A stretch of 64,000 nt of DNA from Moheibacter lacus (lineage in GTDB: Bacteria > Bacteroidota > Bacteroidia > Flavobacteriales > Weeksellaceae), in NCBI RefSeq assembly GCF_014042165.1, contig NZ_JACDZE010000001.1, forward strand, positions 1,634,595-1,698,594, given 5' to 3'. Both the position numbers and the translations under genes were made by a program. Positions within the stretch are counted from its first letter, which is position 1. Each line of letters starts with the position of its first letter. The notes under the pieces were generated by a model, which ran no database searches, had not been told where the DNA came from, and saw only the letters and a program-made list of their open reading frames with translations. Shown in pieces: positions 4,755 to 9,762 of the stretch.

Positions 4755-5618
4755 TTGATTTTGAGTCGATTCATATTCATTCTTCCCTTTTTTGTTTTGA
4801 GTTTGTTGGCACAAGCCCAAATGAGTGTAGATAAACTATTGGTTTTTAGTCCGGATGAGCATTCGGTGAAATACAATGAAGTTTATACTGATAATTTTTT
4901 CTTTGGGAATTTCGGGATTAAATATTTGGTGAATGCGGTTCCTATTTCGACTAAAAATATAAAAACCGTTAAAATTTCAACCGAAACAGAAGGAAATAAA
5001 ACACCGGATGTTTTTGAATTGAAGTATGACGAAGAAGGAAAATTGATCCAAATGAAAGTTTCTGAAATGCTTTCTGGTAAAGCCATGACGGTGGATTATG
5101 TTTACAAAGACGGATTGATTCAAGAAGAAATTTTCAAAGACAGCGAAGGGACTCGTTCCAATAAATTCCATTATGCCGAAGGAAAAATGATCGTGGAAAA
5201 TCTCAAAGGAATGATCGACGTTTACCAATTGAAAGGAAAATTGTTATTTAAAGAATCTTACCTAAACGGAAAACCGGTTTTTAAAGATAGAATCGAAGGT
5301 AAATGTAGAATCACTTCTTACCAACGAGACGATATCGATAAAACTTGTTACAGTAATTTTACAGGTGAAATGCCTGTTTCAGTAGAAGAATTTTCTACTT
5401 CGGAAAATGTGAAAACCAATAAAATTTCTCTGGTTTCTGAAAGCATTTGGAAAGTAGAGGAAAATGCAAATGGAACCTATAGCTTTTTAAACGGAAAAAC
5501 AGAATTGTACCGTTTAGAATTAGATAAAAATGGAACGGTTAAAAATTTTGAATTTATGGGAATCAAATCGGAATTTAAAAAACCGATTCATTTTTCATTT
5601 AGTTATACATACTATTAA
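4755..5618 (+). CDS. Secreted protein of unknown function inside the suf operon
   Basis: No family recognised. The frame is open from an ATG at 4683, which would overlap the sufA gene by 62 nt. A TTG at 4755 (or 4761) gives a compact signal peptide (ILSRFIFILPFFVLSLLAQAQ), so I prefer a non-ATG start there; this remains uncertain. The mature part has strand-like repeats of the type YDEEGKLIQMKV, YVYKDGLIQEEIF and FHYAEGKMIVEN, resembling MORN/YwqK-like beta-hairpin proteins. It lies between sufA and sufB on the same strand with a 62-nt gap to sufB. An exported protein in an iron-sulfur assembly operon is unexpected, and no role can be assigned. Confidence 0.75.
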   Translation: MILSRFIFILPFFVLSLLAQAQMSVDKLLVFSPDEHSVKYNEVYTDNFFFGNFGIKYLVNAVPISTKNIKTVKISTETEGNKTPDVFELKYDEEGKLIQMKVSEMLSGKAMTVDYVYKDGLIQEEIFKDSEGTRSNKFHYAEGKMIVENLKGMIDVYQLKGKLLFKESYLNGKPVFKDRIEGKCRITSYQRDDIDKTCYSNFTGEMPVSVEEFSTSENVKTNKISLVSESIWKVEENANGTYSFLNGKTELYRLELDKNGTVKNFEFMGIKSEFKKPIHFSFSYTYY

Positions 5619-5632
5619 ATAGGAGTTGAATT

Positions 5633-5675
5633 TTTGAAATCAAATTTCATCCGCCGCGGCGGACAAATTTTCAAA
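5633..5675 (+). repeat. Long REP-like hairpin in the sufB leader
   Basis: The perfect palindrome TCCGCCGCGGCGGA (5650-5663) is extended on both sides by AAATTT and TTTGAAA/TTTCAAA arms, giving an imperfect stem of about 20 bp that ends five bases before the sufB ATG. The same GC palindrome recurs at 21454-21467. There is no T-tract, so termination is unlikely. It could be a REP-like insertion or an mRNA-stability or processing element within the operon. Confidence 0.7.
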
Positions 5676-5680
5676 TTGAA

Positions 5681-7138
5681 ATGAGCAATACAAAATATAC
5701 AGAAGACGATTTAAGACAGGATTTGTCTACGAAAAAGGAATATGAATTCGGATTTACGACGGATGTCGAATACGAAGAATTTCCAATCGGCCTGAACGAA
5801 GACATCGTCCGTGAAATTTCCAAACGCAAAGAAGAGCCGGAATGGATGACCGAATGGCGTTTGGATGCATTTCGTGAATGGCAGAAAATGGAAGAACCGG
5901 AATGGGCCAATGTTAATTATCAAAAGCCTAATTTTCAGGATATTACTTATTATGCTGCGCCGAAAAAGAAACCGGAATTGGCAAGTTTGGATGAAGTCGA
6001 TCCCGAATTATTGAAAACCTTTGAAAAATTGGGGATTTCGATTGACGAACAAAAACGTTTGACCGGTGTTGCGGTGGACATCGTGATGGATTCCGTTTCG
6101 GTTGCTACGACTTTTAAAGATACGTTAAATGATCTGGGCATTATTTTCTGTTCGATTTCAGAAGCGATCAAAGAACACCCTGAATTAGTGAAAAAATACA
6201 TCGGGAAAGTCGTTCCGAAAACCGATAATTTCTATGCAGCTTTGAATTCGGCAGTATTTTCTGACGGATCCTTTTGTTATATCCCAAAAGGCGTTCGTTG
6301 TCCCATGGAGCTTTCCACTTATTTCCGAATTAATCAAGCCGGAACAGGTCAGTTTGAAAGAACATTGTTGATCGCGGACGAAGGCGCGTATGTTTCGTAT
6401 TTGGAAGGTTGTACCGCACCGATGCGAGATGAAAACCAATTGCATGCGGCAGTGGTTGAATTGATAGCGATGGACGATGCCGAAATCAAATATTCCACGG
6501 TTCAGAATTGGTATCCGGGAGATGAAGAGGGAAAAGGAGGTGTTTTCAATTTTGTGACGAAAAGAGGATTGGCCGAAAAAAATGCAAAAATCAGTTGGAC
6601 ACAAGTCGAAACCGGATCAGCAGTGACTTGGAAATATCCGAGTTGTATTTTGAAAGGTGATAATTCGACAGGAGAGTTTTATTCGATTGCGGTTACCAAT
6701 CATTTCCAACAAGCCGATACCGGAACGAAGATGATTCACATCGGAAAAAATTCCAAATCGACGATTATTTCCAAAGGAATTTCGGCCGGAAAATCACAAA
6801 ACAGTTATCGAGGTTTGGTAAAAGTGATGGCCAATGCTGAAGGAGCGAGAAATTTCTCACAGTGCGATTCACTTTTGATGGGAAATGAATGTGGAGCGCA
6901 TACGTTTCCATACATCGAAATCAAGAACAAATCCGCCAAACTGGAGCACGAAGCCACAACCTCCAAAATCGGAGAAGATCAATTGTTTTATTGTAACCAA
7001 AGAGGAATCGATACAGAAAAAGCAATTGCATTGATTGTAAACGGATTTAGCCGTGAGGTTTTGGACAAATTACCAATGGAATTTGCAGTAGAAGCGAAGA
7101 AGTTATTGGAGATCAGTTTGGAAGGTTCAGTAGGGTAA
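5681..7138 (+). CDS. sufB: Fe-S cluster assembly scaffold SufB
   Basis: 485 residues, normal for SufB. It is the core subunit of the SufBCD scaffold on which sulfur and iron are assembled into Fe-S clusters. Typical segments are [19 protein letters not shown], the [11 protein letters not shown] loop and the C-terminal [21 protein letters not shown] segment. The start at ATG 5681 follows the long hairpin. The next gene in the operon is the four-helix-bundle cassette, after which sufC and sufD follow on the same strand, so the suf order is preserved around an insertion. Confidence 0.98.
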
Positions 7139-7140
7139 AT

Positions 7141-7173
7141 AAGTTCAAAGTTTAAAGTTTAAAGTTTAAGGTT
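7141..7173. repeat. Left inverted repeat of the four-helix-bundle cassette
   Basis: The sequence is AAGTTCAAAG followed by TTTAAAG heptamers and TTTAAGGTT. Its reverse complement matches 7569-7601 at 29 of the first 31 positions. It starts two bases after the sufB stop codon and ends at the TTG start of the four-helix-bundle gene. Confidence 0.85.
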
Positions 7174-7575
7174 TTGGCAACGATAGAAAGATTTGAAGAT
7201 TTAGAAATTTGGAAAGAAGCAAGAATTGTTTCAAATAAAATCTTCGTAATCTCAGTTGAATCAGAACTTAAAAATGATTTTGGACTCAAAAACCAAATTA
7301 AAAATTCTTCAGGTTCTATAATGGACAACATTGCAGAAGGATTTGAAAGAGGTGGAAATCTGGAGTTTAGACAATTTTTATCCTTTGCTAAAGGTTCTGC
7401 CGGAGAAACAAGATCGCAATTATATCGTTTATTGGATTCTAATTATATAAAAAAGGAGAAATTTGAAGAATTGAAATCGGATTTAGAAAAGATAAGTGGA
7501 AAGATTACAAATTTTATAAAATATTTAAACAATAATGATTTTAAAGGAAATAAGTTCAAGGAAGGACAACCTTAA
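7174..7575 (+). CDS. Four-helix-bundle protein (23S rRNA IVS-encoded protein family)
   Basis: 133 residues with the family motifs FEDLEIWKEAR, EGFERGG and EFRQFLSFAKGSAGE. These mark the four-helix-bundle family (TIGR02436 / 23S rRNA-intervening-sequence protein), whose members occur in rRNA intervening sequences and, as Avd, in diversity-generating retroelements. Its biochemical role is unsettled; related proteins form oligomers that bind nucleic acid. The start is a TTG at 7174, the first start-like codon after the left repeat. The stop codon TAA (7573-7575) lies within the right repeat. No DGR reverse transcriptase or rRNA is nearby. The gene interrupts the usual sufB-sufC junction, which suggests insertion. 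Confidence 0.92.
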   Translation: MATIERFEDLEIWKEARIVSNKIFVISVESELKNDFGLKNQIKNSSGSIMDNIAEGFERGGNLEFRQFLSFAKGSAGETRSQLYRLLDSNYIKKEKFEELKSDLEKISGKITNFIKYLNNNDFKGNKFKEGQP

Positions 7576-7601
7576 ACTTTAAACCTTAAACTTTAAACAA
7601 A
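7569..7601. repeat. Right inverted repeat of the four-helix-bundle cassette
   Basis: AACCTTAAACTTTAAAC followed by CTTAAACTTTAAAC; it pairs with 7141-7173 with two mismatches over the first 31 positions. It contains the stop codon of the four-helix-bundle gene and ends a few bases before the sufC ATG at 7606. Confidence 0.85.
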
Positions 7602-7605
7602 TAAA

Positions 7606-8361
7606 ATGTTAAAAATAAACAACTTACACGCTCAAATTGAAGACGGAGCCGAAATTTTAAAAGGAATTAATTTAGAGATAAAACCGGGAGAAGTCCATGC
7701 GATCATGGGACCAAATGGTTCCGGAAAATCTACCCTTTCATCTGTAATTGCAGGAAAAGAAGATTATGAAGTAACGGATGGTGAAATCGATTTTGAAGGA
7801 GAAGATTTACTCGAAATGGGTGCTGATGAACGTGCGCACAAAGGAATTTTCCTTTCGTTCCAATATCCGGTAGAAATTCCTGGTGTTACCGTGACCAATT
7901 TCATCAAAACGGCGATAAACGAAACCCGAAAAGCACAAGGTTTGGAAGAAATGGGTGCTTCTGAAATGTTGAAATTGATCCGAGAGAATGCGGAGAAATT
8001 GGGCATCAGAAAAGATTTTCTTTCTCGTTCTCTAAACGAAGGATTTTCAGGTGGAGAAAAGAAACGTAACGAAATCTTTCAAATGATGATGCTCAACCCA
8101 AAATTGGCAATTCTAGACGAAACGGATTCTGGTTTGGACATTGATGCACTGCGAATTGTGGCAGATGGAGTCAATGCGTTCAAAAATGAAAACAATGCCG
8201 TTTTGGTCATCACGCATTATCAACGATTATTGGATTATATCGTCCCTGACTTTGTCCACGTTTTGAGCGATGGTAAAATCATCAAATCAGGTGGAAAGGA
8301 ACTGGCGCATGAGTTAGAAGCGAGAGGTTATGATTGGGTGATCGAAGAAGCAGCAGTTTAA
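7606..8361 (+). CDS. sufC: Fe-S assembly ATPase SufC
   Basis: 251-residue ABC-type ATPase of the SufBCD complex that drives conformational change during cluster assembly. Visible motifs are Walker A GPNGSGKST (about residue 36-44), Q-loop at SFQYPVEIPGV, signature FSGGEKKRNE, Walker B LAILDETDSGLD and the switch His in VITHYQR. Cytosolic, with no membrane partner expected. It follows the four-helix-bundle cassette by 30 nt, and sufD follows after a hairpin-containing gap. Confidence 0.98.
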   Translation: MLKINNLHAQIEDGAEILKGINLEIKPGEVHAIMGPNGSGKSTLSSVIAGKEDYEVTDGEIDFEGEDLLEMGADERAHKGIFLSFQYPVEIPGVTVTNFIKTAINETRKAQGLEEMGASEMLKLIRENAEKLGIRKDFLSRSLNEGFSGGEKKRNEIFQMMMLNPKLAILDETDSGLDIDALRIVADGVNAFKNENNAVLVITHYQRLLDYIVPDFVHVLSDGKIIKSGGKELAHELEARGYDWVIEEAAV

Positions 8362-8367
8362 TTATTT

Positions 8368-8432
8368 GTACAATGTAAAAATGTATAATGTAAATCGCTA
8401 CATTATACAATATACAGTGATACATCAATACA
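8368..8432. repeat. Gene-less heptamer hairpin between sufC and sufD
   Basis: The left half repeats TGTACAA, TGTAAAAA, TGTATAA, TGTAAAT. After a short CGC turn, the right half repeats TACATTA, TACAATA, TACAGTGA, TACATCA. The inner arms TGTATAATGTA and TACATTATACA are perfectly complementary. It has the same architecture as the repeats flanking the four-helix-bundle gene, but different heptamers and nothing between the arms. Confidence 0.65.
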
Positions 8433-8439
8433 ATAATAA

Positions 8440-9762
8440 ATGATTGATTTAAAAGAAAATTTGGTTTCAAGACATTTGGTTTTCAACGAGAAGAATGCCA
8501 AAAATAAATTTGTGAACGAATTGCGTCATGAAGCCATCGAGATATTTGATAAAGCAGGATTTCCATCTAAAAAAAATGAAGAATGGAAATATACCAATCT
8601 GGCTCCGATCCTGAAAAAGGATTTTAAATTATTTCCTGAAACGGAAGAAATTTCCATCGGTTACCAAGACGTGAAAAAGTATTTCATCCATGATATGGAT
8701 ACTTACAAAATTGTCTTTCTAAATGGTGTTTACAGTAGTTATCTTTCTGAAACGACGCATGAAGAAGCAGATATCTGTGTTCTTTCCAGTGCGATGAATA
8801 AGATGATGCACCAGCCGGTAATCGAGAATTACTATGGAAAAATTGCAGATAAAACGGAAAGTATGGTTTCTTTAAATACTGCTTTCTTTAAAGACGGAGC
8901 ATTTATTTATGTTCCGGACAATGTGATTTTATCCAAACCGATTCAGATTGTATTTCTTTCTACCTATCATGAATCAGAAGTGATGTATCATCCGCGGAAT
9001 TTGATAGTAATTGGTAACAATGCCCAAGCGCAAATCATAGAACGCCATCAAACGCTCAATGGAAAATCCAATTTGACAAACTCTGTAACGGAAGTTCAAG
9101 TTGGGAAAAATGCAGAATTGGATTATTATAAAGTTCAAAATGATGCATCTGAAGCTTCGCTAATTGATTCTACATTTGTAGCCCAAGAAAGAGATTCTAG
9201 AGCGCAGTTTTCTACTTTTTCTTTTGGAGGAAATTTGACCAGAAACAATTTGAATTTTATTCAAAACGGTGAAAATTGCAATTCCATATTAAACGGAATT
9301 ACCGTTATCGGTGGTTCTCAGCATGTGGATCACCATACCAAAGTGGAACATAAATTCCCGCATTGTGAAAGCCACGAATTGTACAAAGGAATTTATGATG
9401 AAAATTCACATGGTGTTTTTAATGGAAAGGTTTTCGTGCATCCGGAAGCACAAAAATTAAATGCTTTTCAACAAAACAACAATGTATTGCTGACTGATAA
9501 AGCAGAAATCGATACCAAACCGCAATTGGAAATTTTTGCAGATGATGTGAAATGTTCGCATGGTTGTACGGTTGGACAATTGGACGACTCGGCATTGTTC
9601 TATATGCAACAACGTGGAATTCCGAAAAAAGAAGCCAAAGCCCTATTGCTTTACGCTTTTGCAGCAGATGTTCTAGAGCATGTTGAGATACCTCAAATGA
9701 AGCAAAGAATTACCAAAATAATCGCTCAGAAGCTGGGTGTCAATATTGATTTTGATTTATAA
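8440..9762 (+). CDS. sufD: Fe-S cluster assembly protein SufD
   Basis: 440 residues; paralogue of SufB that completes the SufBC2D scaffold and is needed for iron acquisition. The N-terminal segment FPSKKNEEWKYTNLAPILK and the beta-helix motif DEIDTKPQLEIFADDVKCSHG (written here as DTKPQLEIFADD and VKCSHGCTVGQ) are characteristic. The length is normal. It is the last gene of the suf operon and is followed by a strong hairpin terminator. sufS is not here but at 35126-36349. Confidence 0.97.
   Translation: MIDLKENLVSRHLVFNEKNAKNKFVNELRHEAIEIFDKAGFPSKKNEEWKYTNLAPILKKDFKLFPETEEISIGYQDVKKYFIHDMDTYKIVFLNGVYSSYLSETTHEEADICVLSSAMNKMMHQPVIENYYGKIADKTESMVSLNTAFFKDGAFIYVPDNVILSKPIQIVFLSTYHESEVMYHPRNLIVIGNNAQAQIIERHQTLNGKSNLTNSVTEVQVGKNAELDYYKVQNDASEASLIDSTFVAQERDSRAQFSTFSFGGNLTRNNLNFIQNGENCNSILNGITVIGGSQHVDHHTKVEHKFPHCESHELYKGIYDENSHGVFNGKVFVHPEAQKLNAFQQNNNVLLTDKAEIDTKPQLEIFADDVKCSHGCTVGQLDDSALFYMQQRGIPKKEAKALLLYAFAADVLEHVEIPQMKQRITKIIAQKLGVNIDFDL

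Follow-up and report, generated by a model that had tools for sequence, protein, structure and literature searches.

A four-helix-bundle gene between inverted heptamer arrays in the suf operon of Moheibacter lacus: a probable counterpart, within operons, of 23S rRNA intervening sequences

An element of about 460 bp located between sufB and sufC of M. lacus is probably a mobile, operon-borne counterpart of the intervening sequences of 23S rRNA, with processing by RNase III inferred. It comprises a single four-helix-bundle (4HB) gene flanked by short tandem repeats in inverted array, and is taken to have inserted, in sense orientation, into a co-transcribed spacer. The same cassette was identified in many operons of many bacteria and therefore looks like a mobile element that dwells in mRNA, as intervening sequences dwell in rRNA. 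Three components are each already known (the protein family, intervening sequences in rRNA, and heptamer arrays in their own right), and we found no earlier text in the open-licence literature that joins them. Screening of the same open-licence texts revealed no link of heptamer repeats to 4HB genes and no match for GxxExxR, or for the 23S rRNA-intervening sequence protein in Bacteroidetes.

For more than 25 years, neither what 4HB (S23p) proteins do nor how rRNA intervening sequences arose has been settled, and the heptamer repeats of bacteria known as STRR have stood without an explanation. One anatomy repeated across many ordinary operons ties 4HB proteins, intervening sequences, and STRR together and provides testable substrates in easily grown bacteria. 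If the proposal is correct, some operons that are thought to be continuous may be cut between cistrons.

The element between sufB and sufC

Features of the junction in the window (i.e., the whole stretch of 64,000 nucleotides that was analysed) are listed in Table 1. The preliminary description had placed the left arm two bases past the sufB stop, the TTG start directly after that arm, and the 4HB stop within the right arm, and had described the arms as built of TTTAAAG-type heptamers; the open reading frame and the arm sequences bear out each of these points, with the 4HB stop at 7573-7575. Its count of 29 complementary positions among 31 also holds (7143-7173 against 7568-7598), but the limits that it gave for the right arm, 7569-7601, are one to three bases off. 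An ATG at the position of the TTG in a close relative (G001) backs the assigned start.

Table 1. Coordinates of the element and its host genes in the window
Feature	Positions	Strand	Basis or remark
sufB, upstream host gene	5681..7138	+	stop codon 7136-7138
Left arm, TTTAAAG-type heptamer array	7141..7173	+	begins two bases past the sufB stop
4HB gene, element cargo, 133 aa, TTG start	7174..7575	+	PF05635 and TIGR02436 matches
Right arm, inverted heptamer array	7568..7598	+	pairs with left arm; holds the 4HB stop codon
sufC, downstream host gene	7606..8361	+	its ATG lies 7 bases past the right arm

The arm pair scored 26, against a maximum of 14.5 among 3,891 random flank pairs from the window, and its predicted duplex has an energy of -29.4 kcal/mol. 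Only two inverted repeats in the other spacers of the window scored at least 14, and both were found between convergent genes and lacked a 7-nt period. No Rfam match was detected across positions 6500-8500 of the window, and the element lies outside an rRNA gene. Two other features were noted in spacers. The sufC-sufD spacer (8362-8439) contains a weak gene-less inverted repeat of a different motif, TGTATAATGTA / TACATTATACA, with 7-nt-like spacing, and a CCGCCGCGGCGG-like palindrome recurs in M. lacus spacers, including 5618-5680 of the window (just 5' of sufB) and two other loci (L002 and L076).

Membership of the encoded protein in the four-helix-bundle family, which had been proposed from the sequence, was confirmed by matches to PF05635 (E 2.7e-31, 108.4 bits; curated cut-off 33.8) and TIGR02436 (E 7.9e-29, 100.1 bits; curated cut-off 24). 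Solved structures among its relatives include 2gsc (XCC0516 of Xanthomonas campestris) and 2rld, and the M. lacus genome encodes four PF05635 genes. The ratio dN/dS was 0.08 for the sufB-sufC gene relative to two orthologues and 0.05-0.14 in 12 pairs of 4HB genes, with dS saturated in several of them. The protein is under purifying selection and is therefore used.

Inverted arms and operon placement of 4HB genes

A search of genomes for 4HB genes with inverted heptamer flanks, which the preliminary description had proposed, identified such flanks widely. We compiled 122 non-redundant 4HB genes from Flavobacteriales, with loci picked in family-score order, and compared the arms of each gene with a null in which arms were paired across elements. 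Because this null contains related elements with common motifs, it is conservative. The median inverted-arm score was 18, compared to 8.5 for mispaired arms, with 80% of the genes above the 95th and 61% above the 99th percentile of the null, although related elements in the set are not independent counts. Comparison of the arms on the same strand placed only 9% above the 99th percentile, and this level was exceeded by 4.6% of 324 control ORFs, several of which were GxxExxR genes or neighbours of elements. The median predicted energy of the arm duplex was -27.3 kcal/mol, compared to -6.4 kcal/mol for mispaired arms. Clear arms were absent from about 20-40% of 4HB genes.

Beyond this set, 70% and 26% of 27 further loci from a phylum-wide Bacteroidota sample exceeded the 95th and 99th percentiles, respectively. 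The corresponding values for 23 plasmid-borne 4HB ORFs outside of Bacteroidota (mostly from cyanobacteria, where plasmid copies are common, and also from Azospirillum and Gemmatirosa) were 65% and 39%; one of 43 control genes passed. Phage records contained no 4HB match.

Nearly all of the 4HB genes of M. lacus and their relatives are flanked by inverted arrays whose imperfect units are 7 or 8 nt long, with a motif that is particular to each element (e.g., GATGGAG, TTTAAAG, TAATTAG, GCTTTCG, and AGTTAGA). Among the 95 elements that scored at least 14, the period was 7 in 60 and 8 in 26; some clades have a period of 6 or 10. Identity within arms was 0.51 at a lag of 7 and 0.49 at a lag of 14, relative to about 0.33 in shuffled arms. 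The sequence of the repeats is highly variable but their period is stable, and the period tracks the protein tree: 11 changes were required over 87 elements, compared to a shuffled mean of 26.8 (minimum 22), and 7 changes when only periods 7 and 8 were considered, compared to 20.8 (minimum 15). Identity was higher in register than after a shift of one unit in 67 of 86 elements; the gap was modest, however (0.64 versus 0.60), indicating that the repeat unit and its period count for more than exact register. Left arms are rich in G (0.227) and poor in C (0.056), with the reverse in right arms, and G exceeded C in the left arm of 85 of the 88 elements that had a difference. Given this composition, neither arm readily folds on itself.

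Most elements are read in the direction of their host operons. Where both neighbours were seen in Flavobacteriales, 76 of 84 elements were co-directional with both and two were antisense to both. The median distance is 2 nt from the upstream stop to the start of the left arm (n = 83) and 13 nt from the end of the right arm to the next ATG (n = 91). Based on neighbour sequences, we take the host operons to include suf, fadA, carA-carB, purC, groES-groEL, and rfb, and a single 4HB clade spans suf junctions as well as miaB-adjacent, folE-cysS, asd, and purA-/purB-like sites. Collectively, the sequences show that arms and gene form one unit that recurs at many unrelated operon junctions. Outside of Flavobacteriales, antisense copies were identified at nrdB/nrdA of Nostoc edaphicum and in Calothrix and Stanieria, and insertion is therefore not strictly tied to the sense transcript. 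Cyanobacterial 4HB genes were also found within CRISPR-cas operons (cas6-cas4 and cas10-cmr3; L336, L341, and L375), two with long heptamer arrays.

Comparison of the sufB-sufC junction among relatives, also put forward in the preliminary description, revealed mostly empty sites. Within the genus, the element is present in two genomes (G001 and G004) and absent from a third (G005). Other genera have the element at sufA-sufB, or their sufB-sufC junction is occupied by another 4HB subfamily, whose units are 8 nt long. Among 80 named genomes surveyed (Chryseobacterium, Flavobacterium, Winogradskyella, and others), 4HB genes were present at sufA-sufB in 10 of 79, at sufB-sufC in 5 of 80, and at sufC-sufD in 7 of 80, all in the operon direction; only a minority of genomes thus had any given junction filled, and the rest had it empty. 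The sufC-sufD junction of Flavobacterium pectinovorum is filled in strain 9 and lacks the gene in DSM 6368, where the spacer contains two heptamer arrays that are not complementary to each other. In Nostoc sp. ATCC 53789, plasmids pNsp_a and pNsp_c have one operon in common; a 4HB element in pNsp_a corresponds to a 3-nt gap in pNsp_c, and one gene further on the roles are reversed, with both insertions directly 3' of the upstream stop codon. TTCTA(G) flanks the pNsp_a element on either side and is a possible target duplication, although it overlaps the near-palindromic end of the element. The suggestion of a self-contained element or small mobile cassette is supported by these empty and filled junctions and by arms that match within each element; rather than all relatives carrying the gene with unrelated flanks, the site is empty in most of them, and in most carriers the gene has matching arms of its own.

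Related systems, proposed route, and alternatives

The closest known systems are the 23S rRNA intervening sequences of Coxiella and Leptospira, which reside in rRNA helices 9, 25, or 45. The Coxiella element has a 28-bp terminal stem, tandem GACAGAT heptamers 5' of the S23p start, and a sense ORF, and it is excised by RNase III, which cuts in the stem (PMC4990558). The operon-borne elements share with these sequences the protein family, termini that are complementary over about 28 bp, tandem heptamers before the start, sense orientation of the ORF, a length of about 430-460 bp, and scattered presence or absence at one site among relatives. In contrast to intervening sequences, which are in rRNA and are excised by RNase III, the sufB-sufC element lies in an mRNA spacer, from which it may be excised; it has an anatomy like that of an intervening sequence but falls outside the defining rRNA location.

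We propose that the operon promoter transcribes the element and that the arms would then form a paired stem, about 30 bp long, which connects the sufB portion of the mRNA to the sufC portion. RNase III may cut this stem, as in 23S rRNA, and free the 4HB piece; cutting is inferred because the Coxiella element has the same anatomy and is cut in its stem. Such cutting would allow the host operon to tolerate the insertion. The oligomeric 4HB protein probably serves the element itself and is predicted to read the spacing of the arm repeats and to promote spread.

Compensatory change in the repeats, which the preliminary description had regarded as diagnostic, was recovered in part. In 97 elements the arms matched their own partner better than they matched the arms of the nearest protein relatives, and in 18 the reverse was true. 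Cross-matches were about as good as own matches in very close relatives (>80% identity), indicating that the co-change is visible at longer divergence. However, a strand-specific test of RNA pairing did not recover compensation, with 88 G.U-compatible arm differences compared to 124 C.A differences (p 0.016), slightly in the wrong direction.

This last result favours a pure DNA element, in which a host recombinase acts on the arms as terminal inverted repeats or as a cruciform, the stem in RNA is a by-product, and co-direction results from selection, since an antisense copy would be unexpressed and would disturb the operon. The best-matched arms occur on antisense copies, and the frequency of cyanobacterial plasmid copies and the lack of a reverse transcriptase in most carriers point the same way. 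Nonetheless, such an element by itself leaves unexplained both the link with rRNA intervening sequences, whose product acts as RNA, and the fixed composition of the arms relative to the gene (G left, C right), and we consider it somewhat unlikely. MITE and IS elements likewise have inverted ends and both gene-bearing and gene-less forms, but differ in that the 4HB elements lack a transposase and have ends that share unit length, not sequence, across elements.

Neither a transposase nor a reverse transcriptase was identified within the element. No RVT_1 match was detected in the M. lacus genome (99.8% complete) or in most carriers; movement by a resident reverse transcriptase is therefore unlikely. 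The same lack in M. lacus argues against a diversity-generating retroelement. The accessory protein of those systems, bAvd (PF22296), has a distant four-helix-bundle relationship to the 4HB proteins but works alongside a reverse transcriptase, and none of four bAvd genes tested had arms.

A host regulatory insert, in which the 4HB protein and stem regulate suf or other operons without mobility, would accord with the strong purifying selection on the protein and with repeated occurrence at the suf operon. It is improbable given that most relatives lack the element at each junction, that the same anatomy occurs in unrelated operons (fad, car, pur, groESL, and rfb), and that, in a single strain, plasmid copies of one operon differ at two neighbouring junctions. 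Chance landing of 4HB genes between pre-existing inverted repeats, with arms unrelated to the gene, could draw on the gene-less arrays at rpoB-rpoC and etfB-etfA described below but is hardly credible when arms surround most 4HB genes and few controls and unit length tracks the protein tree.

A second cargo and gene-less arrays

Judged from their flanks, GxxExxR nuclease-like genes are a second cargo of such arms. Among 31 of these genes (PF13366), 52% had inverted arms above the 95th and 35% above the 99th percentile, often with a spacing of 9-11 nt. In the survey of 80 named genomes, 4 further genomes carried a GxxExxR gene at sufB-sufC. GxxExxR (PDDEXK_3) genes with inverted arms were observed between sufB and sufC at five loci (L084, L085, L093, L232, and L236), and some relatives of GxxExxR carriers have a 4HB gene at a different suf junction of the same operon.

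Heptamer repeats have also been described elsewhere. The STRR heptanucleotide repeats of cyanobacteria are possibly transcript-stabilising (PMC2670836), inverted GGGAATC pairs in Xanthomonas were not found in association with mobile elements (PMC4692102), and TAACTGA repeats are a further example (PMC4679880). Like the arms, STRR and GGGAATC repeats are arrays of heptamers that frequently occur in inverted pairs or form hairpins in the spacers of co-transcribed genes (PMC2670836, PMC4692102), but unlike 4HB elements they were described without a gene. Tentatively, a small oligomeric protein may recognise repeat spacing (6, 7, 8, or 10 nt) instead of sequence and perhaps make or extend arrays, such that STRR, the Xanthomonas inverted heptamers, and rRNA intervening sequences could be derivatives of one transcript-living system with GxxExxR proteins as a second driver.

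M. lacus itself has gene-less heptamer hairpins, one of TTTAAAG units in an rpoB-/rpoC-like spacer (L006, about 1440-1540; G000:C1:1467640-1467763) and one in an etfB-/etfA-like spacer; under the proposed route, gene-less inverted arrays would be non-autonomous copies. In a Flavobacterium MAG, the region 3' of the suf genes (L301, 7560-8260) contains a long tandem run of AAGACGA/TCGTCTT heptamers together with several repeat units of larger size.
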